Shown here piece by piece: positions 1 to 11,231 of a stretch of DNA of 11,231 nucleotides. The notes below the pieces were generated by a model. It was given only the letters and a program-made list of their open reading frames with translations. It did no database searches and was not told where the DNA came from. Within the stretch, counting starts at the first letter, position 1; the number at the start of each line of letters is the position of its first letter. Source of the stretch: Treponema sp. (lineage in GTDB: Bacteria > Spirochaetota > Spirochaetia > Treponematales > Treponemataceae); the NCBI GenBank assembly GCA_012513125.1, contig JAAZCS010000150.1, positions 1 to 11,231 on the forward strand, in the 5' to 3' direction. Position numbers and translations under genes: made by a program.

Positions 1-351
1 CACAATAATTCCAACTATAAACATTACAAAAGGAGTCCATCTATTTGAAAGCAACTCTTTTAAAATTTGCAGTTTTACATATTGATAATGATTCTTAATT
101 GCTTCTTCATAAATAATTTTTTCATTGTCATCTATTTCATTGCTTTTAATTCTAATTTTTATTTCACTTTTTGGAAGAACTGCTTTTTGTGAATTATCAA
201 GATATTCCGCCACTTCGCTATTTATTACAGGATATTTTCCATAGTATGGCGAAAGAAAATTGCTGTCATCTTTTACAACCATGTCGATTATTGAACGGCC
301 GTCCGCGTCTTTTTCAAGAAAAATATTTTTGATGCTATCTATCTGTTTCAT
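1..351 (-). CDS. Membrane protein of unknown function, N-terminal part (runs off the left edge)
   Basis: Open from an ATG at 351 to base 1 (117 codons), with no stop inside the window, so the C-terminus is missing. The protein starts MKQIDSIKNIFLEKD. About 100 hydrophilic, charge-rich residues follow, and a hydrophobic stretch (FVMFIVGIIV) begins at the edge, so a cytoplasmic N-terminal region followed by a membrane segment is likely. An AGGG 9 bases before the ATG is an acceptable ribosome binding site. I do not recognise the family with certainty; it resembles small hypothetical membrane proteins of anaerobes whose soluble part leads into one or two membrane helices. The gene is divergent from the hydrolase at 602-1141, with its own candidate promoter at 421-429 and a palindrome in its leader at 372-396. 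Real gene: fairly sure. Function: unknown. Confidence 0.75.
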   Translation of the reverse strand, partial: MKQIDSIKNIFLEKDADGRSIIDMVVKDDSNFLSPYYGKYPVINSEVAEYLDNSQKAVLPKSEIKIRIKSNEIDDNEKIIYEEAIKNHYQYVKLQILKELLSNRWTPFVMFIVGIIV

Positions 352-371
352 GTTTGGTTACCCTAGTTTTG

Positions 372-396
372 AACTGTCGAGAATTTCTCGGTAGTT
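372..396 (-). promoter_or_regulatory. Imperfect 25-bp palindrome in the leader of the left-edge membrane protein gene
   Basis: AACT-gt-CGAGA-att-TCTCG-gt-AGTT is symmetrical apart from a 2-base mismatch on each side. It lies between the candidate promoter (421-429) and the start codon (351) of the minus-strand gene. It could be an operator or a hairpin in the 5' leader. No T-run follows, so it is not an obvious terminator. Confidence 0.4.
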
Positions 397-420
397 GCCG
401 ATTTTTGCACTTCAACTTTT

Positions 421-429
421 ATTTTATCA
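421..429 (-). promoter_or_regulatory. Extended -10 promoter for the left-edge membrane protein gene
   Basis: On the minus strand this reads TGATAAAAT, an extended -10 (TGn + TAAAAT). No convincing -35 hexamer is found 16-18 bases upstream. It would give a leader of about 60 bases that includes the palindrome at 372-396. Confidence 0.35.
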
Positions 430-458
430 CATTTTTTGGTCTGTTACTTATTCAAAGA

Positions 459-487
459 TTGAAAATTCAATTCTTTTGCGTTATACT
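459..487 (+). promoter_or_regulatory. Sigma-70-type promoter for the alpha/beta hydrolase gene
   Basis: TTGAAA (459-464), a 17-base spacer, then TATACT (482-487). The -35 lies in a small inverted repeat TTGAA-AA-TTCAA (459-470). The predicted RNA start is near 494, only about two bases before an ATG at 496. That ATG is out of frame with the hydrolase. Confidence 0.55.
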
Positions 488-601
488 ATTTATCTATGAA
501 GTTGAATAGTCGAAATATTATAACACAAAACTAACAAAAAAGCCATCTTATATGTTCACGGCAAAGGCGGAAAGGCTCAAGAAGCAGACGCATATAAAAA
601 G

Positions 602-1141
602 ATGTTTCCAATGTATGATGTCTATGGACTTGATTACAAAACATGGACACCATGGCAAACAAAAGAAGAATTTTCAACATTTTGCAAGGTGCTTGAAGAA
701 AACTATGAGAAAATAATTCTAATTGCTGGTAGTATTGGAGCTTTTTTCTCAATGAATTCTGGAATGGAAGCTATATTCAAGAATAAACTTGAAAAAGCGT
801 TTTTCATATCCCCCATTGTTGATATGGAAAAACTTATATCTGATATGATGCACTGGGCCAATGTTTCAGAACAAAGGCTTATTGAAGAACAAAATATCCC
901 AACAGACTTTGGCGAAACATTGTCGTGGGACTATCTAACATATGTTCGGAATAATCCCATAACATGGAAAACAAAAACATATGTATTGTATGGGGATAAA
1001 GACAATCTTACATCACAAGAGACAATCGAAAAATTTGTTCGAAACCATAATGGACATTTAACAGTTATGAAAAATGGTGAACATTGGTTTCATACAGCCG
1101 AACAAGTTGATTTTTTAAATGTTTGGCTAAAATCTCTGTGA
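602..1141 (+). CDS. Alpha/beta hydrolase, small serine-hydrolase type, with a damaged or unusual 5' end
   Basis: A 179-codon frame from the only in-frame start codon (602) to TGA. It shows an alpha/beta-hydrolase triad: nucleophile elbow AGSIG with Ser44, an Asp in GDKD (about 132-134) and a His in NGEHWFH (161 or 164). The same frame is open back to 524, and those upstream codons read KKAILYVHGKGG, the first strand and HG oxyanion loop of the fold. The functional protein should therefore begin near 530, but no ATG, GTG, TTG or CTG occurs in frame between 524 and 601. An ATG at 496 sits one base out of frame; removing one A from the AAAA run at 527-530 would join it to the gene. The gene is either frameshifted, has lost its start, or uses a non-standard start. 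The substrate is unknown; relatives are annotated only as small cytoplasmic hydrolases. No ribosome binding site is seen before 602. Confidence 0.75.
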   Translation: MFPMYDVYGLDYKTWTPWQTKEEFSTFCKVLEENYEKIILIAGSIGAFFSMNSGMEAIFKNKLEKAFFISPIVDMEKLISDMMHWANVSEQRLIEEQNIPTDFGETLSWDYLTYVRNNPITWKTKTYVLYGDKDNLTSQETIEKFVRNHNGHLTVMKNGEHWFHTAEQVDFLNVWLKSL

Positions 1142-1189
1142 CAGCATACATTAGGTGACTTTATTAACTCATGTTTCAAGATATCTATG

Positions 1190-1456
1190 TTACTCGCAAC
1201 TAGAGTGTGGCTTTTTTGAATACGTAGCACATCGTCTATAAAAGCAGACAGGAATAATGATTAATAACGCAATTATAGATGCAGCAAGGAAGATTTCTTT
1301 TACAGGTATAGCTACAGTTTCTCCAAATTCATTTATATAAGTTTGTCCTTAATGTTCACATAGAAAAGCGCCAATCTGAGTCCCAATTATCATTATTGAA
1401 CGTGTTAAGCAGAACACGGAAGTCATCCTGCCAACACGAACATTGCTATGTGAAAA
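1190..1456 (-). pseudogene. Remnant of an MFS transporter C-terminus
   Basis: Directly after the GH5 stop codon and in the same frame, the minus strand is open for 35 codons to a TAA (1349-1351), then for 52 more to a TAA at 1190-1192. The translation before the internal stop contains VRVGRMTSVFC and then IMIIGTQIGAFLCE. After it come GQTYINEFGETVAIPVKEI, a strong hydrophobic helix (LAASIIALLIIIPVCF) and a basic tail (YRR). The GR-x-x-S pattern before a membrane helix, and a last helix followed by a basic tail, match the end of MFS drug transporters (compare GRVFS in the intact MFS at 9332-10579). No start codon or ribosome binding site serves it, and the N-terminal ~300 residues are absent. 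It looks like the decayed 3' end of a transporter gene replaced upstream by the GH5 gene. The gap from 1142 to 1189 holds nothing I recognise. Confidence 0.6.
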
Positions 1457-2629
1457 TTATTTTCTTCCAAGAAAAATATCAACAATTTCTTTCTCATTTA
1501 TTGAAAGTGAATAGCGTTCTATCTCGCCCATTCCCCACTCAAAGTTTGCATTTGTGTCCCAGTAGAGAGCCGAAATTCCATATTTTTTTGTTAATTTTGT
1601 TTGATAAGTAACCCATTTAATTCTTTCATCATAACTTCTGTTTCTAAATGAAGCTGTTTCACCAATTACAATTGGGATTCCCTTTGAAATATATTTTTCA
1701 TTCAAAAGATTAAATGAATCTGTAAGTTGTTTCTTCGATTCTTCTGTAAATTTCACATCTGCATCATTTTGATTAACGCCCATAATGTAACTATGAACTG
1801 TAAGAATGAGTTTATCCTTTGCAGAATCATCAGGAAGTTTAAAATAAGAGTTATCTGTTGTTGTATACATTGCAGTACATAAAGATGGAATCATTACAAA
1901 ACGCTTTGCATTATTTCCACCACTAGCTCTGATAATATCAAGAATCATTTTGTTATAATCATTTAATAAATTGAATTCTTCTTCTTTTTTTGGAAACCAT
2001 TCATCAGCAGCACCTGCATTACGAGGTTCATTCAATGTTTCAAAAATTAAATGTTCATCATAACTGTTGTTAAAAGATTCACAAATCTGAGTCCAAATTG
2101 CCGTTAAGAAAGCTTTAGATTCTGCAATATCTTTGGGATTGTTTCTAATAATATACCCTTCACCATATTTGATTGGACTTTTCATATCGGCACGAACATC
2201 ATGATGACTATTTATTATTACATAATAGCCCTCTTCCATTGCCCAATTAACTATAGTTTTAACTCTTTTCATCCATTCTTCATTAATTGTGTATTTTTTA
2301 TCAGAAATATGATTAAACCAAGTAATAGGAATTCGAATCGTTTTATATCCGTTTTCAAACCCAAATTTAATTATATCAGAAGTTGTATGTGCTTCACCCC
2401 AACCATATTGACTGTTTAACGTAGTATCAGGTTTTTTTGTTGAACCATAAGCATCCAGTGTATTACCCAAATTCCAGCCATTTCCCATCGATTTTACAAA
2501 TTCAATTGCCGATTTTGAATCATCAAATTTGCCTTCTGTTGCAGAATCCTTTATTGAGACACTTTTATCATTTGCATAAACATTTAAACAAAACAAAACT
2601 AATACAATTCCAAAGATTTTTCTTTTCAT
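1457..2629 (-). CDS. Secreted GH5 endo-beta-glucanase (cellulase family, probably subfamily GH5_4)
   Basis: 390 residues with a signal peptide (basic MKRK, then a hydrophobic core, probable cleavage after NVYA at 19), so it is exported. The rest is one GH5 (beta/alpha)8 domain. Landmarks are the N-terminal GNGWNLGNTLDA (49-60), the RIP arginine (99), NSHHD with the His pair 142-143, the acid/base Glu201 in LNEPR, HSY (279-281), the nucleophile Glu324 in IGETAS, and the YWD tryptophan (357). All residues needed for catalysis are present. The WNLGNTLDA and LNEPR context is typical of endoglucanases and xyloglucanases of GH5_4; which glucan it cuts cannot be told. No carbohydrate-binding module or anchor follows, and the protein ends right after the last barrel helix. 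An AGAGG precedes the ATG. It is apparently transcribed alone from the promoter at 2686-2713. Confidence 0.93.
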   Translation of the reverse strand: MKRKIFGIVLVLFCLNVYANDKSVSIKDSATEGKFDDSKSAIEFVKSMGNGWNLGNTLDAYGSTKKPDTTLNSQYGWGEAHTTSDIIKFGFENGYKTIRIPITWFNHISDKKYTINEEWMKRVKTIVNWAMEEGYYVIINSHHDVRADMKSPIKYGEGYIIRNNPKDIAESKAFLTAIWTQICESFNNSYDEHLIFETLNEPRNAGAADEWFPKKEEEFNLLNDYNKMILDIIRASGGNNAKRFVMIPSLCTAMYTTTDNSYFKLPDDSAKDKLILTVHSYIMGVNQNDADVKFTEESKKQLTDSFNLLNEKYISKGIPIVIGETASFRNRSYDERIKWVTYQTKLTKKYGISALYWDTNANFEWGMGEIERYSLSINEKEIVDIFLGRK

Positions 2630-2685
2630 TTATATAACCTCTACTAAAAATTTACCCACATCTAAAATATAAATTCTTTTTAAAG

Positions 2686-2713
2686 TTTATAATCATTTGC
2701 ATTCAAATTGCAA
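2686..2713 (-). promoter_or_regulatory. Candidate promoter for the GH5 gene
   Basis: On the minus strand, TTGCAA (2713-2708), a 16-base spacer and TATAAA (2691-2686) lie 55-80 bases before the GH5 start, in the gap behind the MATE gene. Both hexamers deviate from consensus. Confidence 0.4.
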
Positions 2714-2738
2714 TACCAGAAATCTTAGTTTTCAAATA

Positions 2739-3995
2739 CTACATCAGACTTTTTTTTCTTTTGAAAATTCCAAAATACAAAGATATAGCAAGAATTAAAG
2801 ATAGCACATCCGCTACAGGCTGTGCCCACATTAAACCATTTATGCCAATAATAGCTCTTAACACAAATAAAGAAGGAATGTATATCAGTCCCTGCCTACT
2901 TATATTTACAATCAACGACGAAGTCGCCGCACCCATTGCCTGAAGTGCGTTTGCAAAAACAAAGAAAACACCAAAGAAAGTGCTTGTGGTAAGAAGAATT
3001 TTTGCAAAGCGTACTGCATATGCAAATGCACTCCTTTCTGTTAGAAAAATACCAACTATTTGATTAACAAACAGATAACACAGCATAGTAAGCACTGCAC
3101 TAACAATGAAAGCCAACACAAGAGAAAATCTCATAATGCCATGATACCGATTCCAATTCATTGCCCCTGTGCAGTATCCCAACAATGGCTGAACGCCCTG
3201 TCCTATCCCCATAGACAGCATTCCTGTAATCATGGTTATTTTCATGGCTACGCCTACACCCGCCAAAGCCATATCGCCATATTCAGCCATCATGCTATTC
3301 ATAATAATCTGGGAAACACTCATCAATACAGAAGCCAGAGCCGCTGGAATCCCTATGGAAAGAACCCCTGATGCAATTTTATTTCTATAGGAATAATTTT
3401 TTATGCTAATACTTAAGATAGATTTTCCATTCACAAAATAAATAATGTAATATAAAGCACCAACAACATTTCCTATAACAGTTGCAATTGCAGCACCCTT
3501 TACATCAAAGTTAAGAGATAAAATTAAAAGCGGATCTAAAATAATATTCAAAACATTGCCTATTATTTGACCCATCATAGCTTTTGTCGCTTGTCCTTCA
3601 GCCCGTAAAATATTTGAATAACAAGAGGTAATCAAAACAAACGGTCCGCTAAAAGCAATTATTGTTAAATAATCTTTCGTAAATTGCAATGTTTCATTAC
3701 TGGCACCTAGAGCAACAACAATTTTATCCAAAAATATCAAAAAAGCTATTGATATAATTATTCCTACAACCACACATGACCAGAAACAAAAAGAACATAC
3801 TTTTTTTGTATATTCCTTTTTTCCTTCTCCTAAGGCTCGGGAAATTACTGAAGTTCCACCGATTCCAAAGACATTTCCTATAGACATGAAAATTAAGAAC
3901 ACTGGCGTTGCAAGAGAAATTGCTGCCACTTGAAAAGGATTATGAGTCTGCCCAATAAAAAAAGTATCAGCAAGATTATAAACAAGAACATTCAT
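2739..3995 (-). CDS. MATE family multidrug/cation antiporter, N-terminally short
   Basis: 418 residues with about 11-12 hydrophobic segments. It carries the family's signature early region ADTFFIGQ (9-16), VAAISLATPVF and FGIGGTSVISRALGEG. The MATE fold exports cationic drugs or metabolites in exchange for Na+ or H+ across the cytoplasmic membrane. In full-length relatives about 25-30 residues (a cytoplasmic tail and the first half of helix 1) come before the point where this protein starts. Here the frame upstream of the ATG is closed by a TAA five codons away, and no better start exists. No clear ribosome binding site precedes the ATG. The start codon overlaps the extended -10 of the divergent MarR gene, 40 bases away, which strongly suggests MarR controls both. 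The protein may still fold, or the gene may have lost its 5' end. The basic tail FKRKKSLM ends it normally. Confidence 0.85.
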   Translation of the reverse strand: MNVLVYNLADTFFIGQTHNPFQVAAISLATPVFLIFMSIGNVFGIGGTSVISRALGEGKKEYTKKVCSFCFWSCVVVGIIISIAFLIFLDKIVVALGASNETLQFTKDYLTIIAFSGPFVLITSCYSNILRAEGQATKAMMGQIIGNVLNIILDPLLILSLNFDVKGAAIATVIGNVVGALYYIIYFVNGKSILSISIKNYSYRNKIASGVLSIGIPAALASVLMSVSQIIMNSMMAEYGDMALAGVGVAMKITMITGMLSMGIGQGVQPLLGYCTGAMNWNRYHGIMRFSLVLAFIVSAVLTMLCYLFVNQIVGIFLTERSAFAYAVRFAKILLTTSTFFGVFFVFANALQAMGAATSSLIVNISRQGLIYIPSLFVLRAIIGINGLMWAQPVADVLSLILAISLYFGIFKRKKSLM

Positions 3996-4003
3996 GTTAT
4001 ACT
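3995..4003 (+). promoter_or_regulatory. Extended -10 promoter for the MarR gene
   Basis: TGTTATACT is an extended -10 (TGn + TATACT), 33 bases before the MarR start. No good -35 is seen. It overlaps the first codon of the divergent MATE gene, so a repressor bound here would affect both genes. Confidence 0.45.
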
Positions 4004-4005
4004 CA

Positions 4006-4023
4006 AATAGTTAAAATTCTATT
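4006..4023 (+). promoter_or_regulatory. Possible MarR operator
   Basis: AATAG-N8-CTATT is an 18-bp dyad lying between the MarR -10 element and its ribosome binding site (AAGGA, 4024-4028). MarR proteins usually bind dyads of about 16-20 bp in their own promoter. The arms are only 5 bp and AT-rich, so this could be chance. Confidence 0.3.
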
Positions 4024-4035
4024 AAGGATGCTTTT

Positions 4036-4479
4036 ATGAAAAAAGATATAGGATTGCTTTTAAAAAACATTACAGATTGCTTAAAAAAACAAGCTGATGC
4101 TTCCTCAAAAGCTTCAGGAATTACGTTTTCTCAATTGCAAGTATTAGAATACATTGCTAATTCAGATAACAAAAGAACTACGCAAAAAGAAATCGAATCT
4201 TTTCTGAATGTATCACACCCGACTGTATCAGGCATTATCAAAAGACTTGAGGAAAAAGATTTAGTTAAAACAGAAGTTTTTGTAAAACATGGAATTAAAA
4301 AATCTGTTGAACTTAGCCCAAAAGGTGACATTCTTGAAAATCAAGTACATTTTCAAAAAGGAAAAATTGAAAAATTACTGACAATGAATTTTAATGAAGA
4401 AGAAAAAGAAAAGCTTGTATATTTATTAGAGAAACTCCAGAAAAATATCACACTAAATCTAAGCAAAAAAACTTATTAA
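4036..4479 (+). CDS. MarR family transcriptional regulator
   Basis: 147 residues, the usual MarR length. An N-terminal helix for dimerisation is followed by a winged helix-turn-helix: TQKEIESFLNVSHPTVSGI (about 49-67) with the recognition helix HPTVSGIIKRLEEKDLV. The wing is around VFVKHGIKKSVELSPKG (81-97), and a charged C-terminal helix completes the dimer interface. A good AAGGA lies 7 bases before the ATG. The gene is divergent from the MATE pump with 40 bases between them, the standard arrangement in which a MarR protein represses itself and a drug pump until a ligand binds. The ligand is unknown. The gene overlaps the stop codon of the convergent GH13 gene by 4 bases, leaving no room for a terminator between them. 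Confidence 0.93.
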   Translation: MKKDIGLLLKNITDCLKKQADASSKASGITFSQLQVLEYIANSDNKRTTQKEIESFLNVSHPTVSGIIKRLEEKDLVKTEVFVKHGIKKSVELSPKGDILENQVHFQKGKIEKLLTMNFNEEEKEKLVYLLEKLQKNITLNLSKKTY

Positions 4480-6026
4480 TATTTTATTTTATAAAAAACC
4501 GCAGTACCACCATCAATACAAATTGAATTTCCATTAACAGAAGAGTTTCCACCTATCGAGAAAAATGGTTCAGTTAATAAATTTGTTTTATTACTCAAAT
4601 CCACTTTATATGATTTTTTTGAAGGGTTAATAATTACGAGAACAGATTCATTATCATTTTTTCTAATATATGCCAATGGATAGTTTTCGGTTTGCAAAAA
4701 TTCCACAGAAGCATTACTTTGCAATGCTGAATGCTCTTTTCGGACACTAATTAGTTTTTTTACAATTGATCTAAGTGAATTAACATCTTTCATTTGTGAT
4801 TCTGCAGTTGGAGACTCAACTGAGTTGTCTACTGGAATATAAATTTGATCTTTATTTGCTTTTGAAAATCCAAAATTTTCAGAATTATCCCATTGCATTG
4901 GAGAACGTGAACCTGTTCTTTCGTATCCACCCTCTACAGAAATAAGATTTTCAACATATCTCATTCCTATTTCATCACCATAATAAATGAAAGGAGCACC
5001 TGGCATAGAAAGTAAAAATGCAAAAGCAATCTTCATTTCGTCTTGAGTTAAATACTTTCCTAAACGAATCATATCGTGATTACCAGATGGAATACAAATT
5101 AAGCCTTTACCATTTGTTTTATTGTAATTCTTTTTGTATGTTTCAAGAAAAGAAGTAATATTTCCTTTTCCTCTTGATGAAAAATATGGTTCTTCACAAC
5201 GGAATAAGTCATTGTAGAATGATGGTCCAAAATGAAGAAGAAAATCCATGTGAAAACCGCCCGCCAAAGACTTATCTGGTTCACCCCATTCCGAAACCAT
5301 TGCCGCTTCAGGAAATTCTTTGTCTAGAAAATCACGAACTTTATTCCACAATTCTATAATTCCAGTTTTTTGTTCATCATCATTCTTAACAAGAGAACCA
5401 GCCATATCAACACGGAAACCGTCACAACCTTTAGAAAGCCAAAATCGCATAACATTCATCATCTCTTCAAGAGTTGCTCTAGGTCCACTATCATTTACAG
5501 ATTGCATCCAAGGTTTTTCACATTTGTAAAATCCATAGTTTAGAGCTGGTTGAGTTGAAAAAAAGTTTAAGGCAACACATCCATTTCTCTGAGAAATACC
5601 ACGTAACCATTGCATATCATTTGGAGCATCCCAAACACAATCTGTCCAAACATATCTATCTGAGAATTCATTTTTTGTAGGTTTCATTGATTCAATAAAC
5701 CAAGGATGTTTATACGATGTATGCCCCGGAACTATATCCAAAATTATGTGCATGTTTCGTTTATGAACTTCATTAAAAAGATTATATAAATCTTCATTTG
5801 TTCCATAACGAGGAGCAACTTTATAATAATCTTGAACGTCATATCCTGCATCATCAAAAGGAGATAGATAGCAAGGATTCAACCAAATGGCATTGCATCC
5901 TAATTCTTTAATATAATCAAGTTTTTCAATAATTCCATAAAAATCACCAATACCATCTCCGTTTTTGTCATAAAAAGACTGTGGATAAATTTCATAAAAC
6001 ACTGCATTTGAAAGCCATTTAGACAT
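4476..6026 (-). CDS. GH13 alpha-glucosidase / alpha-amylase family enzyme, cytoplasmic
   Basis: 516 residues without a signal peptide, so it acts in the cytoplasm on imported oligosaccharides. The opening YEIYPQSFYDKNGDGIGD (11-28), with its DxNxDGxGD calcium loop, is typical of the oligo-1,6-glucosidase / alpha-glucosidase branch. Conserved regions: I, DIVPGH (97-102, with Gly in place of the usual Asn); II, GFRVD with the nucleophile Asp207; III, VSEWG with the acid/base Glu246; IV, SGNHD with Asp318; and QPALN (159-163) as region V. A small beta-domain ends the protein. All three catalytic acids are present, so it should be active on alpha-glucosidic bonds of malto-oligosaccharides or related sugars; the exact specificity cannot be read. 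AGGAG precedes the ATG. It lies 24 bases behind the PAP2 gene and is probably the last gene of the GNAT-PAP2-GH13 operon. Confidence 0.92.
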   Translation of the reverse strand: MSKWLSNAVFYEIYPQSFYDKNGDGIGDFYGIIEKLDYIKELGCNAIWLNPCYLSPFDDAGYDVQDYYKVAPRYGTNEDLYNLFNEVHKRNMHIILDIVPGHTSYKHPWFIESMKPTKNEFSDRYVWTDCVWDAPNDMQWLRGISQRNGCVALNFFSTQPALNYGFYKCEKPWMQSVNDSGPRATLEEMMNVMRFWLSKGCDGFRVDMAGSLVKNDDEQKTGIIELWNKVRDFLDKEFPEAAMVSEWGEPDKSLAGGFHMDFLLHFGPSFYNDLFRCEEPYFSSRGKGNITSFLETYKKNYNKTNGKGLICIPSGNHDMIRLGKYLTQDEMKIAFAFLLSMPGAPFIYYGDEIGMRYVENLISVEGGYERTGSRSPMQWDNSENFGFSKANKDQIYIPVDNSVESPTAESQMKDVNSLRSIVKKLISVRKEHSALQSNASVEFLQTENYPLAYIRKNDNESVLVIINPSKKSYKVDLSNKTNLLTEPFFSIGGNSSVNGNSICIDGGTAVFYKIKY

Positions 6027-6050
6027 ATAACACTCCTGTAAAAGTCGCTT

Positions 6051-7016
6051 CTAAAGTTTCATTTTTTGTGCGTCTTCAATTTTAGTAAAAATCAAAGGAT
6101 ACAGATATGTTACAAAAAATGTCATGATAAAAGCATACAAAAAAGTGGTTACTGCGGTAGGTAAGAAACTTTTAAAAATAGAAAAACCTGCACGGACAAT
6201 AAAAATTACAATCGGAAGACCACAAATTAAGCGTGCTATTTTCTGATTAATAGAACATTCAACATTGAATTTAACGAATCTACGTTCCAAAACCCAACCG
6301 ATAAAAAACCCTATCGCAGCTCCAGTACAATAACTTGTGTCGGGAACCATCTTTTTTGAATCAACAAGAATTTTTCCTGCTTCATCGTAATCGATTGGAT
6401 AGTTCTTTACCATAGCATAAATTGTAATGGCAACTGAAATGACAACAACAATCAACGTTAAAATGATATCATTGTTTTTTCCCTTTTCTGTCCACGTAAT
6501 AATTTTTGATACAATGAAAAGCCAAATACATCCTACACAAAGAGATACAAGAACATCCTGCGGGGTATGAACACCAAGATAATTCCGCGAAAAACAAATC
6601 AACGCAAGAATCACGATAGATGCTATCATTGCCACTTTAGAACGGCTTTTCATCTTTGCAGCAAGACCACCCCATAATGCAGTACTCTGTGATACGTGTC
6701 CACTTGGGAAAGAATATCCAGTAGCCGTTATTTTTGCATCAGAAACAGGCATAACACGTACATCACGAATCCACGGACGATAAATACAAGCGGTGATTTT
6801 CAGGAAGCCATTTGATATAAATGAAAAAGCGAAGTTCATCAAAAGATAAACGCCTATTTCCTTGTTGACAACCCAGTAGATGCACGCCATTATACAAACG
6901 GGTATTAATCCGTTACCAAGTTCTGTAAAAGTAGTGAAGAAACTATCAAAGATTCCACCTGTTAATTTACGAAAGTTCTGTAATAAAAGAAGATAATCTA
7001 TATCAATAATTGACAA
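6051..7016 (-). CDS. PAP2 superfamily membrane phosphatase
   Basis: 321 residues with about eight hydrophobic segments. It carries the full lipid-phosphatase signature: K-x6-RP (Lys73, Arg80-Pro81), PSGH (104-107) and SR-x5-H-x3-D (Arg144, His150, Asp154). The histidines form and relay a phospho-enzyme. Such enzymes dephosphorylate lipid phosphates (phosphatidate, undecaprenyl diphosphate) at the outer face of the membrane. A C-terminal extension of about four more helices, beyond the six of the core, makes it longer than the simplest PAP2 proteins. The start is a TTG: an in-frame stop lies immediately before it and the next ATG (residue 43) is inside the first membrane helices. AGGT lies 9 bases upstream. 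It is 38 bases behind the GNAT gene and 24 before GH13. The substrate is unknown, and I see no biochemical link to its neighbours. Confidence 0.92.
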   Translation of the reverse strand: MSIIDIDYLLLLQNFRKLTGGIFDSFFTTFTELGNGLIPVCIMACIYWVVNKEIGVYLLMNFAFSFISNGFLKITACIYRPWIRDVRVMPVSDAKITATGYSFPSGHVSQSTALWGGLAAKMKSRSKVAMIASIVILALICFSRNYLGVHTPQDVLVSLCVGCIWLFIVSKIITWTEKGKNNDIILTLIVVVISVAITIYAMVKNYPIDYDEAGKILVDSKKMVPDTSYCTGAAIGFFIGWVLERRFVKFNVECSINQKIARLICGLPIVIFIVRAGFSIFKSFLPTAVTTFLYAFIMTFFVTYLYPLIFTKIEDAQKMKL

Positions 7017-7054
7017 TTATATATTACCTATTTCTAAACGCAAGAAAAAATCTT

Positions 7055-7576
7055 TTATTTTTTTATACTCATTAAAAACGTTCCTGCCCTTTCACCTGAT
7101 TTTAGAATAATAGTATTTTTATAGAAAGAAACTTTCTTGAATCCAACTGATTCATAACAGTTAATAGCCGAAATATTAAAATCATAAACACACAGGCGAA
7201 TTTTCTCCAGATTTAATTTGTTGAATGCTATATTAAGCGCCTCCTTGATGATCTGTTTTCCATACCCTTTGTTTCTGTTTTCTTTTTCACCAATTAAAAA
7301 CTTGCCAACTGTAGCATGTTTTTTTTCGTAATTTATTCTGAGCAAGTCAATGCAGCCTATCATCGTTTTGTTTTCATCCAATATTTTGAATGAATAATTC
7401 GATGAATCTTCACCATTAACATCACAAGTGGTATATTTTTCTTCAATCTGACCAATAGAAAGCGGAAAGCAATATTCTCTTCCTGCCCATTGCTGCAGAA
7501 AATCCGACGATGTATCCTTATTCCATTTCACGATTTGCATGAAATCAGAGTGATTAATTTTTTCAAGTTTTATCAA
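7055..7576 (-). CDS. GNAT family N-acetyltransferase (Acetyltransf_3 / RimJ-RimL-like)
   Basis: 173 residues forming one GNAT domain. The acetyl-CoA pyrophosphate loop is RNKGYGK (101-107, pattern R-x-x-G-x-G), preceded by the beta-strand VGKFLIG (90-96). The later motif FNISAINCYESVGFKK (133-148) is the usual N...A..CYE..GF end of the fold. The start is a TTG (7574-7576) with GGAG 7 bases upstream; an ATG 14 bases earlier is out of frame and ends after eight codons. The acceptor is unknown: relatives acetylate ribosomal proteins, small amines or antibiotics. Its leader has the elements of a translational attenuator (7581-7692, leader ORF 7692-7760), which would fit a gene induced by a ribosome-targeting compound. 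That is inference. It is probably the first gene of an operon with PAP2 and GH13. Confidence 0.92.
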   Translation of the reverse strand: MIKLEKINHSDFMQIVKWNKDTSSDFLQQWAGREYCFPLSIGQIEEKYTTCDVNGEDSSNYSFKILDENKTMIGCIDLLRINYEKKHATVGKFLIGEKENRNKGYGKQIIKEALNIAFNKLNLEKIRLCVYDFNISAINCYESVGFKKVSFYKNTIILKSGERAGTFLMSIKK

Positions 7577-7580
7577 AGCG

Positions 7581-7692
7581 AAACTCCATAAAAGTTTAAA
7601 ACTAAAATGACATAGCAGAAAATCTGCCAGTTTTGAGGAAATAAAAAATGTTTGATTGCTTTAAGCCGCAGATTTTGCGGGAAATGGAGTTT
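7581..7692 (-). ncRNA. Structured mRNA leader that can sequester the GNAT ribosome binding site
   Basis: In the minus-strand transcript, AAACTCCAT (7692-7684) begins at the last base of the leader-ORF stop codon. It is exactly complementary to ATGGAGTTT (7589-7581), which contains the GGAG of the acetyltransferase gene. The 9-bp helix encloses two hairpins: A, CCGCA-AAATC-TGCGG (7680-7666), and B, GCAGA-TTT-TCTGC (7627-7615). Hairpins A and B can also pair with one another through AAAATCTGC (7676-7668) and GCAGATTTT (7627-7619), 9 bp, instead of folding separately. A ribosome held at the end of the leader ORF would cover the anti-Shine-Dalgarno strand and free the GNAT start. No U-run follows the hairpins, so control of translation is more likely than transcription termination. 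The pairings are seen directly; the function is inferred. Confidence 0.55.
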
Positions 7693-7767
7693 TACCTTCT
7701 GATAGTCATCTTGTTAACAATTGCTAAAAGGCGTGTTAAGTTGTTTTCTAATAAAATCACTTTATAA
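7648..7767 (+). CDS. Doubtful 39-codon ORF antisense to the GNAT leader (small hydrophobic peptide)
   Basis: ATG to TAA with GAGG 9 bases upstream. The peptide starts MFDCFKPQ, has a hydrophobic core FYLLIVILLTIA and a basic end KRRVKLF. That layout (one membrane helix, then positive charges) is like type I toxins. It overlaps the GNAT leader on the other strand almost completely, its hairpins are the same inverted repeats, and no promoter is visible on the plus strand. I consider the minus-strand leader the better explanation and list this ORF as an alternative. Confidence 0.2.
   Translation: MFDCFKPQILREMEFYLLIVILLTIAKRRVKLFSNKITL
7692..7760 (-). CDS. Candidate 22-residue leader peptide of the GNAT operon
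   Basis: GTG (7760-7758) to TAA (7694-7692). A strong GGAGG (7773-7769) sits 8 bases before the GTG, better than that of the downstream genes. The peptide begins MILLENN, contains RLLAIVNK and ends KMTIRR. Hydrophobic LAIV-type stretches and closely spaced basic residues near the end occur in ribosome-stalling leaders of macrolide-resistance genes, but I do not recognise this peptide. The transcript would start near 7797 with a small hairpin (CCATT-TTGT-AATGG, 7796-7783) and then this ORF. Its stop codon abuts the anti-Shine-Dalgarno strand at 7692-7684. A very short ORF can arise by chance; promoter, ribosome binding site and RNA pairing together make it credible. Confidence 0.5.
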   Translation of the reverse strand: MILLENNLTRLLAIVNKMTIRR

Positions 7768-7803
7768 ACCTCCAAGTTATGTCCATTACAAAATGGTTTG
7801 AAA

Positions 7804-7812
7804 ATTATAGCA
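7804..7812 (-). promoter_or_regulatory. Extended -10 promoter for the GNAT-PAP2-GH13 operon
   Basis: On the minus strand this reads TGCTATAAT, a perfect extended -10 (TGn + TATAAT). No -35 of quality is seen, as is common for extended -10 promoters. It would start RNA near 7797, giving about 220 bases of leader before the acetyltransferase start. Confidence 0.55.
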
Positions 7813-7873
7813 TAGTTTGCAATTTTGGGCATTATGAAAGATGACCAACTCATAAAATGGCAAGTATATCAAA

Positions 7874-7979
7874 AGTTTTTATAGTGTATAATGAAAACTC
7901 TGTTTTTATGACAACTTTTCTTATTTCAATATAAAAACTATTGTTATTTTACTACTTTTCATATTACATAATGAAAACT
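7874..7979 (+). repeat. Two dyads sharing a 12-bp direct repeat upstream of the ATPase gene
   Basis: ATAATGAAAACT occurs at 7888-7899 and again at 7968-7979, 80 bases apart. Each copy is the right arm of an inverted repeat: AGTTTTTAT (7874-7882) with ATGAAAACT (7891-7899), and ACTTTTCAT (7954-7962) with ATGAAAACT (7971-7979), one mismatch each. The first copy includes TATAAT (7887-7892) and the second CATAAT (7967-7972), possible -10 elements. They lie 70-175 bases before the ATPase start, as expected for operators. No convincing -35 hexamer accompanies either. Apart from this and the GNAT leader, I see nothing between 7577 and 8047. Confidence 0.45.
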
Positions 7980-8047
7980 TCTTGATAAAACAAGAACAAT
8001 ATCCTATAATTCTACTGTATCTCTTGTTTAATTATAAGGAAAGTAAG

Positions 8048-9229
8048 ATGCAAGAACGACAATCTTTTCTAGAAAAACTCAAGAAATTAAAAGACACTCA
8101 AATCATTAAAGTAATTTCTGGTGTTCGAAGATGTGGCAAATCAACATTGCTAAAACAATTCCAAGACTACTTGCTCGAAAATGATGTTGAAAAATCTCAA
8201 ATCATAGACATCAACTTTGAAGATTTATTAAATGAGCCTTTGCATAACTATAAAAAACTTTACTCTCATACAACGTCATTGCTTATAAAAGACAAAATGA
8301 ATTACATTTTTCTAGATGAAATTCAGCTTGTTGAAAATTTTCAAAAAGTTGTCGACTCACTTTTTATTCAAAAAAATGTTGATCTTTACATAACAGGTTC
8401 AAATGCATATTTACTTTCTGGTGAACTTGCCACATTGCTTTCTGGCCGATACATTGAAATAAAAATGCTACCGTTTTCTTTTGCAGAATATTTTTCATTT
8501 GTTGGCGGTAATAAAAAAGAAGCTTGGAATTCTTTTTTCAAATACGGCGGATTCCCTTACGCTTCAACATTGCATGACGACCAAATACGGAATGACTATC
8601 TTTCAAGTATTTACAACACAGTTTTATTAAAGGACATTGCATCTAGAAAAAAAATTGGCGATATTGCTTTATTACAAGATGTTGTAAAATTCTTATTTGA
8701 TAACATAGGCAATATAGTTTCTCCAAAAAAAATTGCAGACAGCTTAACTTCTGTCGGTAGGAAGACAACTTCCATAACTGTTGATAATTATATAAACGCA
8801 CTAATGGAATCTTTTATTTTATACAAAGCAAGCCGCTATGATGTAAAAGGAAAAGAACATCTAAAGTCACTTGAAAAATACTATCTTGTTGATGTTGGAC
8901 TGCGCAGACTTTTGATTGGTGACAGAAATACAGACATAGGTCATATCTTAGAAAACATTATTTACATTGAACTAATTCGACGTGGCTACAATGTATACAT
9001 AGGAAAAATTGGTTCTTTAGAAATTGATTTCACCGCAGAAAAATCTGGAGAGATTTCTTATTACCAAGTTGCCGCAACAGTTCTTGATGAATCAACATAC
9101 GCTAGAGAAATAGCACCACTAAAGAAAGTGCATGACAATTTCCCAAAATATATTCTTTCACTTGATGAATTTATAACTTCAGAAGATGGCATAAAGCAGC
9201 TCAATGTTATTGACTGGCTATTGGCATAA
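8048..9229 (+). CDS. AAA-type ATPase with C-terminal DUF4143 (PD-(D/E)XK nuclease-like) domain
   Basis: 393 residues from the ATG at 8048, which has AAGGAAAG just upstream. A TTG at 7982 would add 22 residues but has no ribosome binding site. The N-terminal ATPase shows Walker A GVRRCGKST (25-33), Walker B YIFLDE (86-91) and the TGSNA sensor (116-120), then SGRY and the LPFSFAEY motif typical of the family. The C-terminal domain has LENIIYIEL (Glu302), LEIDF (324-328) and YYQVA (Gln340), the degenerate PD-(D/E)XK pattern of DUF4143, with Gln in place of Lys. These proteins are common in multiple copies in spirochaetes, Bacteroidota and archaea. Their role is not established; defence, toxin-antitoxin-like and mobile functions have been suggested. 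Single gene, with possible operators at 7874-7979. A second family member lies at 10826-11231. Confidence 0.93.
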   Translation: MQERQSFLEKLKKLKDTQIIKVISGVRRCGKSTLLKQFQDYLLENDVEKSQIIDINFEDLLNEPLHNYKKLYSHTTSLLIKDKMNYIFLDEIQLVENFQKVVDSLFIQKNVDLYITGSNAYLLSGELATLLSGRYIEIKMLPFSFAEYFSFVGGNKKEAWNSFFKYGGFPYASTLHDDQIRNDYLSSIYNTVLLKDIASRKKIGDIALLQDVVKFLFDNIGNIVSPKKIADSLTSVGRKTTSITVDNYINALMESFILYKASRYDVKGKEHLKSLEKYYLVDVGLRRLLIGDRNTDIGHILENIIYIELIRRGYNVYIGKIGSLEIDFTAEKSGEISYYQVAATVLDESTYAREIAPLKKVHDNFPKYILSLDEFITSEDGIKQLNVIDWLLA

Positions 9230-9237
9230 AATAAAAC

Positions 9238-9273
9238 TCTTATGCAAAATTTCAAAAGAAGTTTTGCATAAGA
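9238..9273 (-). terminator. Hairpin between the convergent ATPase and MFS genes, probable terminator
   Basis: A perfect 12-bp stem (TCTTATGCAAAA at 9238-9249 with TTTTGCATAAGA at 9262-9273) and a 12-base loop. Read on the minus strand it is followed by AGTTTTATTTTA, so it best serves the MFS gene. On the plus strand the stem starts 9 bases after the ATPase stop but is followed by A-rich sequence. It may act in both directions. Confidence 0.65.
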
Positions 9274-9331
9274 AAATAAATCACTGTTCCTTACTAAACT
9301 TTTTAATGTACTTGTCATTCATAAAATAAAC

Positions 9332-10579
9332 TCATGTGAATATTCCCAAGAACGCAATTGTAAAAAAGAAGAACGCCGCACCAGAGCCTTTTCCGCTGCC
9401 GAACATTTTTATAAAAAAGCTTCCGGATTTTTGAGTAGACATAAATGGTTCGTACACTTTGTCAACAAAAAAACCACCAAAAAAATATCCAACAGGAATT
9501 GTAAAGAACTGCAATATGTTTCTTGCAGAAAAAACTCTTCCTTGAATTTCAACAGGGACATTTTCACGCATTATAGCATCCAGGTTTGTACTCATAAGTG
9601 GAATTAAAATCCAACCAAGAAATTCTGCCCCGCACCATACCCAAACATTTCTTCCAAACGCAAGCATAAAATTTTCAAACGACATAGAAAAAAGCAGTGT
9701 GTAGCAAATAACCTTCACTCTGTTTTTTGGCTTCTTAAATGCAGATGCAATAAAACTTCCAACAAGCATTGTTACACCTCTAAAAGCGTTGACAGTTCCA
9801 AGCACTGTTTCTCCACCACCACTTCTTGATAAAATCATTGCAGGAAAAGCCGCTTCAAAAAGTGAAGCTGTAAGATTTATAAAGGCCAGGAAAATAATCA
9901 AATCAAAAATTCCACGGTTCTGCATCAAATAAGATAGTTTTGTCTTTGCAGATTCAAAAAATGTTTCCTTTTTAGATTCAGATTTTTCTGCCTCAGGAAT
10001 CTTTATAAAAATTAATAGAGTTACAAAAGCCACAGCAAATGTTCCCAAGTCAAAGAAAAGCACAAAATCAATTCCTGCAAAAGCGACAAAGGCCGTTGCA
10101 ATTACAGTCGTTAAAATTGAATTAACAGAATTAGAAAGATACCGCAACCCACCAACTTTCTGATAATACTTTTTTGGAAGAACAAGACTTGTTGCAACAT
10201 CAGAAGCAGGCTGCTGTATTGTATTCATAAAACCGTTCAGCGCATTTAGCAAATACAAATGCCACAGTTCAAGATTGCCTGTTTTCATAAGCACAAGAAT
10301 TGTTACAGTTCCCATTGCGGCAATTGCATCACACCCAAGCATGATTTTCTTTTTGTCCAACCTGTCGCTTAACGCACCTGCAAAAATACTTAGCAGAACA
10401 TAAGGCGCATATGAACATACCATTAAAAGTGAAGTTGCAAGTGCCGAGCCCTTTTGTTGGTAAGACCAAATTACCAAGGCGTAACCTGTCATTGCACTAC
10501 CAAGGGCAGAAAAAGATTGAGTTAGCCATAAAACAAGAAATGTTCTGGCTTCATATAAAAAATTAAATTTAGATTTCAT
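9332..10579 (-). CDS. MFS efflux transporter, MefA/MFS_3-like, possibly truncated at the C-terminus
   Basis: 415 residues, about twelve membrane helices in two bundles. The loop motif A is GALSDRLDKKK (68-78) after helix 2, and GRVFS (347-351) is its counterpart in the second half. A soluble loop around 195-215 separates the bundles. Proteins of this group pump macrolides or other small molecules out of the cytoplasm using the proton gradient; the substrate here is unknown. AGGAG lies 9 bases before the ATG. The protein stops right at the end of helix 12 (IAFLGIFT), but after the TGA (9332-9334) the same frame continues VYFMNDKYIKKFSKEQ to a second TGA (9281-9283), 8 bases before the terminator hairpin. 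That extension is just the basic tail expected after helix 12, so a recent nonsense mutation or readthrough is likely. The gene has a long structured leader (10627-10699). Confidence 0.9.
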   Translation of the reverse strand: MKSKFNFLYEARTFLVLWLTQSFSALGSAMTGYALVIWSYQQKGSALATSLLMVCSYAPYVLLSIFAGALSDRLDKKKIMLGCDAIAAMGTVTILVLMKTGNLELWHLYLLNALNGFMNTIQQPASDVATSLVLPKKYYQKVGGLRYLSNSVNSILTTVIATAFVAFAGIDFVLFFDLGTFAVAFVTLLIFIKIPEAEKSESKKETFFESAKTKLSYLMQNRGIFDLIIFLAFINLTASLFEAAFPAMILSRSGGGETVLGTVNAFRGVTMLVGSFIASAFKKPKNRVKVICYTLLFSMSFENFMLAFGRNVWVWCGAEFLGWILIPLMSTNLDAIMRENVPVEIQGRVFSARNILQFFTIPVGYFFGGFFVDKVYEPFMSTQKSGSFFIKMFGSGKGSGAAFFFFTIAFLGIFT

Positions 10580-10626
10580 TTGACTTTGCTCCTATTAAAA
10601 AAAATAAAACGAAAAGCAAAGCCTAG

Positions 10627-10699
10627 AAGAGACAATTTGAAAGTTCGTAATTCCACATAGAATTTTTACAAACTAATTTTCCCCTTACAGTTGTCTCTT
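10627..10699 (-). ncRNA. Structured 5' leader RNA of the MFS gene
   Basis: On the minus strand AAGAGACAA (10699-10691) pairs perfectly with TTGTCTCTT (10635-10627), closing a 55-base interior. Inside it a second hairpin is visible: AGTTTGT + AATTC pairing with GAATT + ACGAACT (one G-U pair, an AAA bulge, loop TATGTG). Downstream of the closing stem comes a T-rich run (TTTTATTTTTTTT), then the ribosome binding site. A further 7-bp pairing is possible between CTTTGCT and AGCAAAG, the latter overlapping the end of the AGGAG. I recognise no known riboswitch. MefA-type pumps are known to be controlled by leader attenuation, so a regulatory role is plausible but inferred. Confidence 0.45.
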
Positions 10700-10743
10700 T
10701 AAGCTCTGCAAGGAGTTGTGTAAATACATAAAATCATATTTTT

Positions 10744-10772
10744 ATAATAACGCAGTTTCTTCTTTGCTACAA
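10744..10772 (-). promoter_or_regulatory. Candidate promoter for the MFS gene
   Basis: On the minus strand, TTGTAG (10772-10767), a 17-base spacer and TATTAT (10749-10744). It would start RNA near 10737 and give a leader of about 160 bases containing the structure at 10627-10699. Confidence 0.45.
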
Positions 10773-10825
10773 GAATTGTGTGCTATACTTTGAAGTCAAG
10801 AAAATGTTACTTCACCTTCCCGCCA

Positions 10826-11231
10826 TCAGTGCAGTTCTTCCAAACAAAGAAAATCCTTGAACTTAATATGCTCAACAGTGCTAGTTGAATAGTCCACATC
10901 ATCATTTGTAATAAGAATTTTTTTTCTAGACTGATCCAAATTGTTGAACGCGGAAAATTCACGTTTATATGCAATTTCATCAGCTACACTGTACGCCACT
11001 TGAATTAAATATTCCTTGTTTTCTTTTGAAGCTAGAAAGTCTATTTCACGACCGTTGTTATTATAAACATAAACTTTGTATCCCATAAAAATCAATTCAT
11101 TGTAAATTATATTTTCAAAGTTGTGCGTTAAATCATAATGATTGCTTTTCTGTCTGATTGTGTTAAAGGCAACATCTTCATCATAAACTTTTGCGTAAAA
11201 ATCAAGTTCCTTTTTTGCCTTAGAAGAATAC
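10826..11231 (-). CDS. Second AAA/DUF4143 ATPase, C-terminal part (runs off the right edge)
   Basis: The minus strand is open from the right edge to a TGA at 10826-10828, about 134 codons, so the ATPase domain lies outside the window. What is visible is the C-terminal nuclease-like domain: FENIIYNELIFMGYKVYVY, REIDF and YLIQVAYS, then KILITNDD near the end. These align with LENIIYIELIRRGYNVYI, LEIDF and YYQVAAT of the complete ATPase at 8048-9229, and show the same E / E-x-D / Q-x-A pattern of degenerate PD-(D/E)XK folds. The two are paralogues but clearly diverged. The role is unknown, as for the first copy. It reads toward the MFS gene with 246 bases between them; the MFS gene has its own candidate promoter, so co-transcription is uncertain. 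Confidence 0.85.
   Translation of the reverse strand, partial: YSSKAKKELDFYAKVYDEDVAFNTIRQKSNHYDLTHNFENIIYNELIFMGYKVYVYNNNGREIDFLASKENKEYLIQVAYSVADEIAYKREFSAFNNLDQSRKKILITNDDVDYSTSTVEHIKFKDFLCLEELH

Follow-up and report, generated by a model that had tools for sequence, protein, structure and literature searches.

A candidate translational attenuator upstream of an uncharacterised GNAT acetyltransferase gene in Treponema sp.

We analysed 11,231 nt of DNA from Treponema sp. (contig JAAZCS010000150.1, positions 1–11,231 of the forward strand; hereafter the window), in which a first-pass annotation had proposed a translational attenuator upstream of a GNAT acetyltransferase gene. The best reading of the locus, to which we give about an even chance, is that it may control this uncharacterised gene through translational attenuation of the cat/erm/toiL kind. 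A short leader ORF with its own Shine-Dalgarno (SD) sequence is present on the same strand as the GNAT gene, an RNA helix that hides the GNAT ribosome-binding site (RBS) is predicted, and a like control has been proposed for the published analogues toiL-topAI (excerpts of PMC12121999) and cat/cmlA (excerpts of PMC5418344 and PMC8876359). Each element of the layout is moderately rare singly, and the joint layout exceeds chance.

In the proposed mechanism, the folded RNA would keep the GNAT RBS shut through pairing between an anti-SD at the end of the leader ORF and the SD of the GNAT gene (SD2). A ribosome translating the leader at its normal, quick pace would open this helix for a short moment only. 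One slowed near codons 19–22, for example in the presence of a ribosome-targeting inhibitor, would hold the helix open, and the held-open helix would turn on the GNAT gene and perhaps also the PAP2 phosphatase gene behind it. Our guess at a natural candidate inducer, given Thr19 ahead of this stretch, is a context-specific inhibitor of the chloramphenicol type; chloramphenicol stalling is described in the excerpts of PMC12121999 as strongest directly after Ala, Ser or Thr codons.

Attenuators mark genes that are turned on when the ribosome is disturbed. If the attenuator is real, an unstudied acetyltransferase is likely to be protective against a compound that acts on the ribosome, and that compound could be identified by a direct assay with the leader. 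The further claim that a spirochaete switch between SD2, the anti-SD, and the SD of the leader ORF (SD1) responds to slowing at the last four leader codons only and thereby deploys the GNAT as an inducible defence is one that we consider unlikely. If it were true, the defence would be directed against the agent of the slowing, be it a drug or a small molecule such as a polyamine or aminoglycoside acetylated by the GNAT itself, and the locus would represent a family of attenuators in which both the leader peptide and the class of target gene are new.

Layout of the locus

Inspection of the sequence located on the minus strand every element that the first-pass annotation had named. The elements lie in the long intergenic stretch between the GNAT gene (7576–7055, minus strand) and a divergent AAA_14/DUF4143 gene on the plus strand (listed as 7982–9229, with an ATG present at 8048). 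A promoter-like extended −10, TGCTATAAT, occupies 7812–7804 on the minus strand, and an RNA start is expected near 7797 from its position. The promoter claim held for the sequence itself, but a consensus scan that requires a −35 did not include the site in the 7 promoter-like ones it reported; the scan gave no excess of sites over shuffled sequences (7 vs 7.0).

The 5′ hairpin, CCATT-TTGT-AATGG (7796–7783), was obtained by fold prediction and is followed by SD1, GGAGG (7773–7769), which lies 8 bases before a GTG at 7760. From this GTG, the leader ORF of 22 codons (7760–7692), MILLENNLTRLLAIVNKMTIRR, runs to a TAA at 7694–7692, so that the reported hairpin, SD, spacing, and ORF were all confirmed over 7796–7692 of the minus strand. 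The GTG is the sole start with an SD among the 15 start codons listed from 7900 to 7576. To our knowledge, the leader peptide carries no recognised arrest motif.

The anti-SD, AAACTCCAT (7692–7684, minus strand), overlaps the leader stop codon by one base, its first A being the third base of the TAA. As had been claimed, it is exactly complementary to ATGGAGTTT (SD2, 7589–7581), which is the GNAT RBS, and the two arms are separated by 94 nt. SD1 sits in TGGAGGTTT (7774–7766), which is complementary to the anti-SD except for one extra G; the same single G distinguishes it from TGGAGTTT of SD2. A local hairpin, CCGCA-AAATC-TGCGG (7680–7666), is predicted by folding between the anti-SD and the GNAT RBS. 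A second 9-bp perfect inverted repeat with the arms AAAATCTGC (7676–7668) and GCAGATTTT (7627–7619) is nested inside the anti-SD/SD2 pair. The GNAT gene encodes 173 aa from a TTG start at 7576, which is consistent with the N-termini of the homologous proteins P0001–P0004. A gene for a PAP2-superfamily phosphatase (7016–6051, minus strand; PF01569, 61.5 bits) starts 38 bases downstream of the GNAT gene, and the spacing suggests that the two are possibly co-transcribed.

A terminator scan detected a weak terminator-like hairpin with a poor T tail, TGGCAGATTTTCTGCTA (7629–7613, minus strand), which was the 1 such hairpin in 6900–8100 against 0.4 expected from shuffled sequences. Both structures needed for transcription attenuation exist in the sequence, with this hairpin as the terminator and the pairing between 7676–7668 and 7627–7619 as the antiterminator. 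Such control is nevertheless highly improbable here: the hairpin has just 3 G-C pairs and its T tail is TGTCATTTTA, and neither the minimum-energy nor the centroid fold contains the pairing between 7676–7668 and 7627–7619, separate hairpins being predicted in its place.

Other features of the region were also observed. Read further upstream, the leader frame stays open as far as an ATG at 7853, and the resulting 53-codon ORF on the minus strand has no SD and crosses the −10-like site. A second promoter-like pair (7890–7863; TATACT with TG) lies directly upstream of this ATG, and a longer, near-leaderless ORF may begin there. On the plus strand, a sigma-70 promoter-like site at 7982–8010 (TTGATA, 17, TATAAT; 11/12) faces the AAA_14/DUF4143 ATPase gene. 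Near the window end, a short ORF on the minus strand (10826–11095) resembles by eye the C-terminal part of a DUF4143 protein of the kind encoded at 7982–9229; it gave no Pfam match.

Frequency of the layout

A perfect complement of at least 9 bases spanning the GNAT GGAG occurred within the 197 nt upstream in 78 of 20,000 dinucleotide shuffles (P = 0.0039); the layout was chosen by eye, and a look-elsewhere factor therefore applies. An ORF of 10–45 codons with a GGAGG SD was found in 30 of 5,000 shuffles of the 474 nt from 8050 to 7577, and a short ORF with a 5-base SD in 64 of 5,000 shuffles of the 197 nt. The joint layout, in which a strong-SD leader ORF carries the 9-base anti-SD at its end, was not observed in any of 5,000 shuffles of the 197 nt. 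Two nested 9-bp repeats were observed in 2 of 5,000. The fold as a whole is modestly more stable than shuffled sequence, with z = −2.03 and 5 of 200 shuffles equally stable, and this speaks against the attenuator.

We determined the same frequencies in a real background of 459 SD-led genes from the own genome (87.8 kb) and two genomes of the same genus (400 kb of each). The genes were called crudely, by taking the longest ORFs and, within them, the first SD-bearing start. An anti-SD of at least 9 bases was found in 2 of the 459 genes, a leader ORF in 5, and the joint layout in none. The subset with mostly noncoding upstream DNA (n = 260) contained 2 anti-SDs and 3 leader ORFs. Within the window, one of the eight genes, the GNAT gene, has the joint layout. 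If the anti-SD and the leader ORF were independent, they would be estimated from these small counts to coincide in approximately 5 to 9 per 100,000 genes. This estimate corresponds to a chance co-occurrence of approximately 0.1 to 0.2 per genome of about 2,000 genes, ignoring the position of the arm at the ORF end.

These frequencies bear on a rival explanation of the locus, namely that a short ORF with a strong SD lies by chance together with a 9-base RBS complement in AT-rich intergenic DNA, the leader RNA having no regulatory role. The anti-SD taken alone is unremarkable enough to suit it, having been spotted by eye at the P value given above and recurring at equal length in the two background genes, and no conservation was seen in 200 genus genomes or 37 distant homologous loci. 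The joint layout, absent from all shuffles and all 459 genes, and the second nested repeat argue against it, and we regard chance as somewhat unlikely. Another gene of the own genome (near 1954 of L042, minus strand) has a 9-base RBS complement in its upstream 197 nt and lacks the joint layout with a leader ORF.

Predicted folding and the modelled ribosome

Folding of the RNA had been put forward in the first-pass annotation as a check, and the prediction agreed that the GNAT RBS is hidden. In the full-length RNA, the predicted pairing of the anti-SD/SD2 helix was 0.95 over nine pairs, the GNAT GGAG was unpaired at 0.00, and the predicted cost of opening the GNAT RBS with no ribosome was 8.5 kcal/mol. 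The 5′ hairpin (7796–7783) was predicted in shorter transcripts and was replaced in the full-length minimum-energy fold.

A ribosome was modelled by an assumed footprint that starts 12 nt ahead of the first P-site base and ends 16 nt beyond it. With the footprint on codons 1–16, the modelled helix stayed at 0.84–0.95 and the opening cost was 5.8–8.7 kcal/mol. On codons 17 and 18, the helix fell to 0.73 and 0.62, respectively. On codons 19–22 or the stop codon, the helix was gone and the opening cost was 4.4–4.6 kcal/mol, a loss that in part follows from the design of the model, in which the anti-SD then lies under the mask. These values suggest that the helix over the GNAT RBS would be removed only by a ribosome on codons 19–22 or the stop codon. 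Even with the modelled ribosome at these positions, the GNAT GGAG was unpaired only at 0.18–0.20, because weak local pairs form with 7575–7578 or 7591–7594; this incomplete opening weighs down the attenuator reading.

In regards to specificity, the codon-22 mask lowered the opening cost by a mean of 0.1 in 300 shuffled leaders, and the observed drop of 4.0 was matched in 3 of the 300. The absolute RBS opening cost was matched in 30 of 300 shuffles (shuffle mean 6.3) and is not extreme. Since the drop is rare and the absolute cost is ordinary, the distinctive trait would be the coupling of the leader end to RBS opening rather than a lock of exceptional strength.

A ribosome that terminates in the ordinary way would also loosen the RBS, which counts against an attenuator. 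Plain translational coupling makes this the whole explanation: ribosomes that finish the leader would loosen the GNAT RBS, and output would track leader translation with no inducer. In the model, the opening cost fell equally far with a ribosome on the stop codon and with one on codons 19–22, and the integron ORF-11 and ORF-18 are described as coupling-based in excerpts of PMC8876359. The leader stop codon precedes the GNAT start by 115 nt, however, a greater distance than the 45 bp given for ORF-18 in the same excerpts, and the helix could reform behind each ribosome. We judge coupling by itself to be improbable.

In predictions for nascent RNA, the anti-SD paired with SD1 at 0.83–0.86 when the transcript ended at 7665, 7640, or 7620. 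This pairing was 0.57 at the ends 7610 and 7605 and 0.08–0.19 between 7600 and 7586, and from the transcript end 7583 onward the anti-SD was on SD2 (at least 0.85). In the full RNA, the SD1-paired state was predicted to be 4.4 kcal/mol less stable than the SD2-paired state, and a ribosome modelled on the leader start left the SD2 lock undisturbed. These predictions suggest that the anti-SD may be the shared arm of a three-way SD1/anti-SD/SD2 switch. The claim of a translational attenuator is supported in part: the anatomy and the modelled ribosome fit it, and they narrow it to a ribosome on codons 19–22 or the stop codon and to an anti-SD that also pairs with SD1. An inducible role in resistance or stress, as suggested in the first-pass annotation, is conjectural.

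Two alternative partners of one anti-SD, 4.4 kcal/mol apart, would also suit an RNA-only switch, in which a ligand or trans factor determines whether the anti-SD sits on SD1 or on SD2, the short ORF playing an incidental or secondary part. The proposed aminoglycoside riboswitch in the aac/aad leader RNA is described in excerpts of PMC7588185 as just such an exchange, with tandem SD1 and SD2 and one anti-SD for either, before an acetyltransferase gene, and the best solved relatives of the GNAT were deposited as aminoglycoside N6′-acetyltransferases. Here, too, pairing of one anti-SD with either SD is predicted. Unlike in that system, the anti-SD here has 9 bases and is placed at the leader stop codon, and no match to a described RNA family was found in Rfam; there were 0 matches at the gathering score, and the relaxed search gave 9, all below gathering and none of the aac/aad leader kind. 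Furthermore, the mechanism of the aac riboswitch is described as still debated in excerpts of PMC5418344. An RNA-only switch is very improbable in our assessment.

Comparison with known leader systems

We compared the candidate attenuator with described leader systems on the basis of excerpts of the papers cited. The toiL uORF upstream of topAI-yjhQ of Escherichia coli is similar in having a short, SD-bearing uORF and a hairpin between the uORF region and the downstream RBS, which stalled uORF ribosomes are proposed to break up (PMC12121999). toiL differs in lying inside the hairpin, and stalls anywhere in it are proposed to be inducing (PMC12121999), whereas only a ribosome on codons 19 to stop would remove the helix in the present model; the genes controlled also differ from the GNAT. 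The cat and cmlA systems share a leader ORF, a stem-loop that masks the RBS, and a drug-related downstream gene (PMC5418344, PMC8876359). The cmlA leader encodes 9 aa (PMC8876359) vs 22 codons here, and the gene here, unlike those of cat and cmlA, is a GNAT of uncharacterised substrate (PMC5418344, PMC8876359). ermB and ermC resemble the locus in having an RBS1, a leader peptide (27 aa in ermBL), and a stem-loop that hides RBS2 (PMC8274638, PMC5418344). The stall in ermBL is believed to occur at codon 10 (PMC8274638); in contrast, a ribosome modelled at codon 10 of the present leader leaves the helix at 0.84.

The kind of control would be a known one, and what sets this locus apart would be its late-only opening, its leader peptide, and the gene that it targets. 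Literature searches on Treponema or spirochaetes, covering titles and the openings of abstracts, showed no spirochaete attenuator among the papers listed, which is weak evidence of absence.

The GNAT protein and relatives of the locus

The GNAT matched PF13420 with 57.2 bits (cut-off 24.3) and was also above the cut-off for PF13302, PF00583, PF13508, and PF13673. In NCBIfam, it was below the cut-off for all 11 families listed, the nearest of which was PseH (64.8 vs 93.1 bits). The best solved relatives were 6erd_A (E = 1.5e-29) and 8q6u_A (E = 8.5e-29), both carrying the depositor name aminoglycoside N6′-acetyltransferase, although such names are no evidence of substrate. The next solved relatives were polyamine acetyltransferases, from E = 3.6e-12.

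The close GNAT orthologues P0002–P0004 are proteins of 66–69% identity, and a 66% orthologue is labelled Treponema sp.; for P0001, 16 contigs are listed. The GNAT search of genome contigs gave 2 distant loci. Some match at E ≤ 0.001, mostly to distant GNATs, was obtained in 78 of 196 genus genomes; at E ≤ 1e-20, matches were obtained in 2 of 200 genus genomes, which were the own genome and one with a 40% match. The search of 394 genomes of the class gave the own genome and three matches of 37–43%. Plasmids gave 117 records, all with <60% identity, phages gave 3 weak records, and viral contigs gave no match. GNAT homologues on Bacillota plasmids had 39–42% identity among the matches listed. The rarity of close copies in the genus, together with the Bacillota plasmid relatives, suggests a mobile history of the GNAT gene.

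The upstream regions of 38 loci were compared: the window's own, L001, 32 from the genome search, and 4 from plasmids. L002 and matches without a given locus were left out, and some gene starts were uncertain. An anti-SD of 9 or more bases was absent from all 37 distant homologous GNAT loci, the closest of which was 44% identical. The longest anti-SDs among them had 8 bases (L007) and 7 bases (L031), and a short ORF with a 4-base SD was present upstream in 10 of the 37. The first-pass annotation had held that homologous loci without the leader would speak against its proposal; such loci were found only among these distant homologues, whose identity of 28–44% is too far to decide. Leaders change faster in evolution than the genes that they precede, and on this ground the absence of the pairing from the distant loci appears neither to support nor to refute the attenuator.

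In regards to the leader itself, its DNA was matched nowhere else in 97 genomes at E ≤ 0.001. Matches at E ≤ 1 were obtained in 196 of 200 genus genomes; outside the own locus, those listed were pieces of 17–59 bases with no full-length relative, and the best of them (33 bases, genome G221, E = 8.2e-4) fell within an AT-rich loop. We read these short matches as noise. The leader peptide matched its own genome and gave four weak matches (E = 0.26–0.99) in 200 genus genomes. Distant blastn did not find the leader in phages, and a search of viral contigs for an exact copy of the SD1-to-start pattern gave no match. We rejected a mobile or repeated element as an explanation, since the leader matches its own genome once at E ≤ 0.001. 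In a same-genus genome (G136), a masked stretch read as X was observed at approximately 2150–2560 of L005, beside the GNAT homologue of 40% identity.
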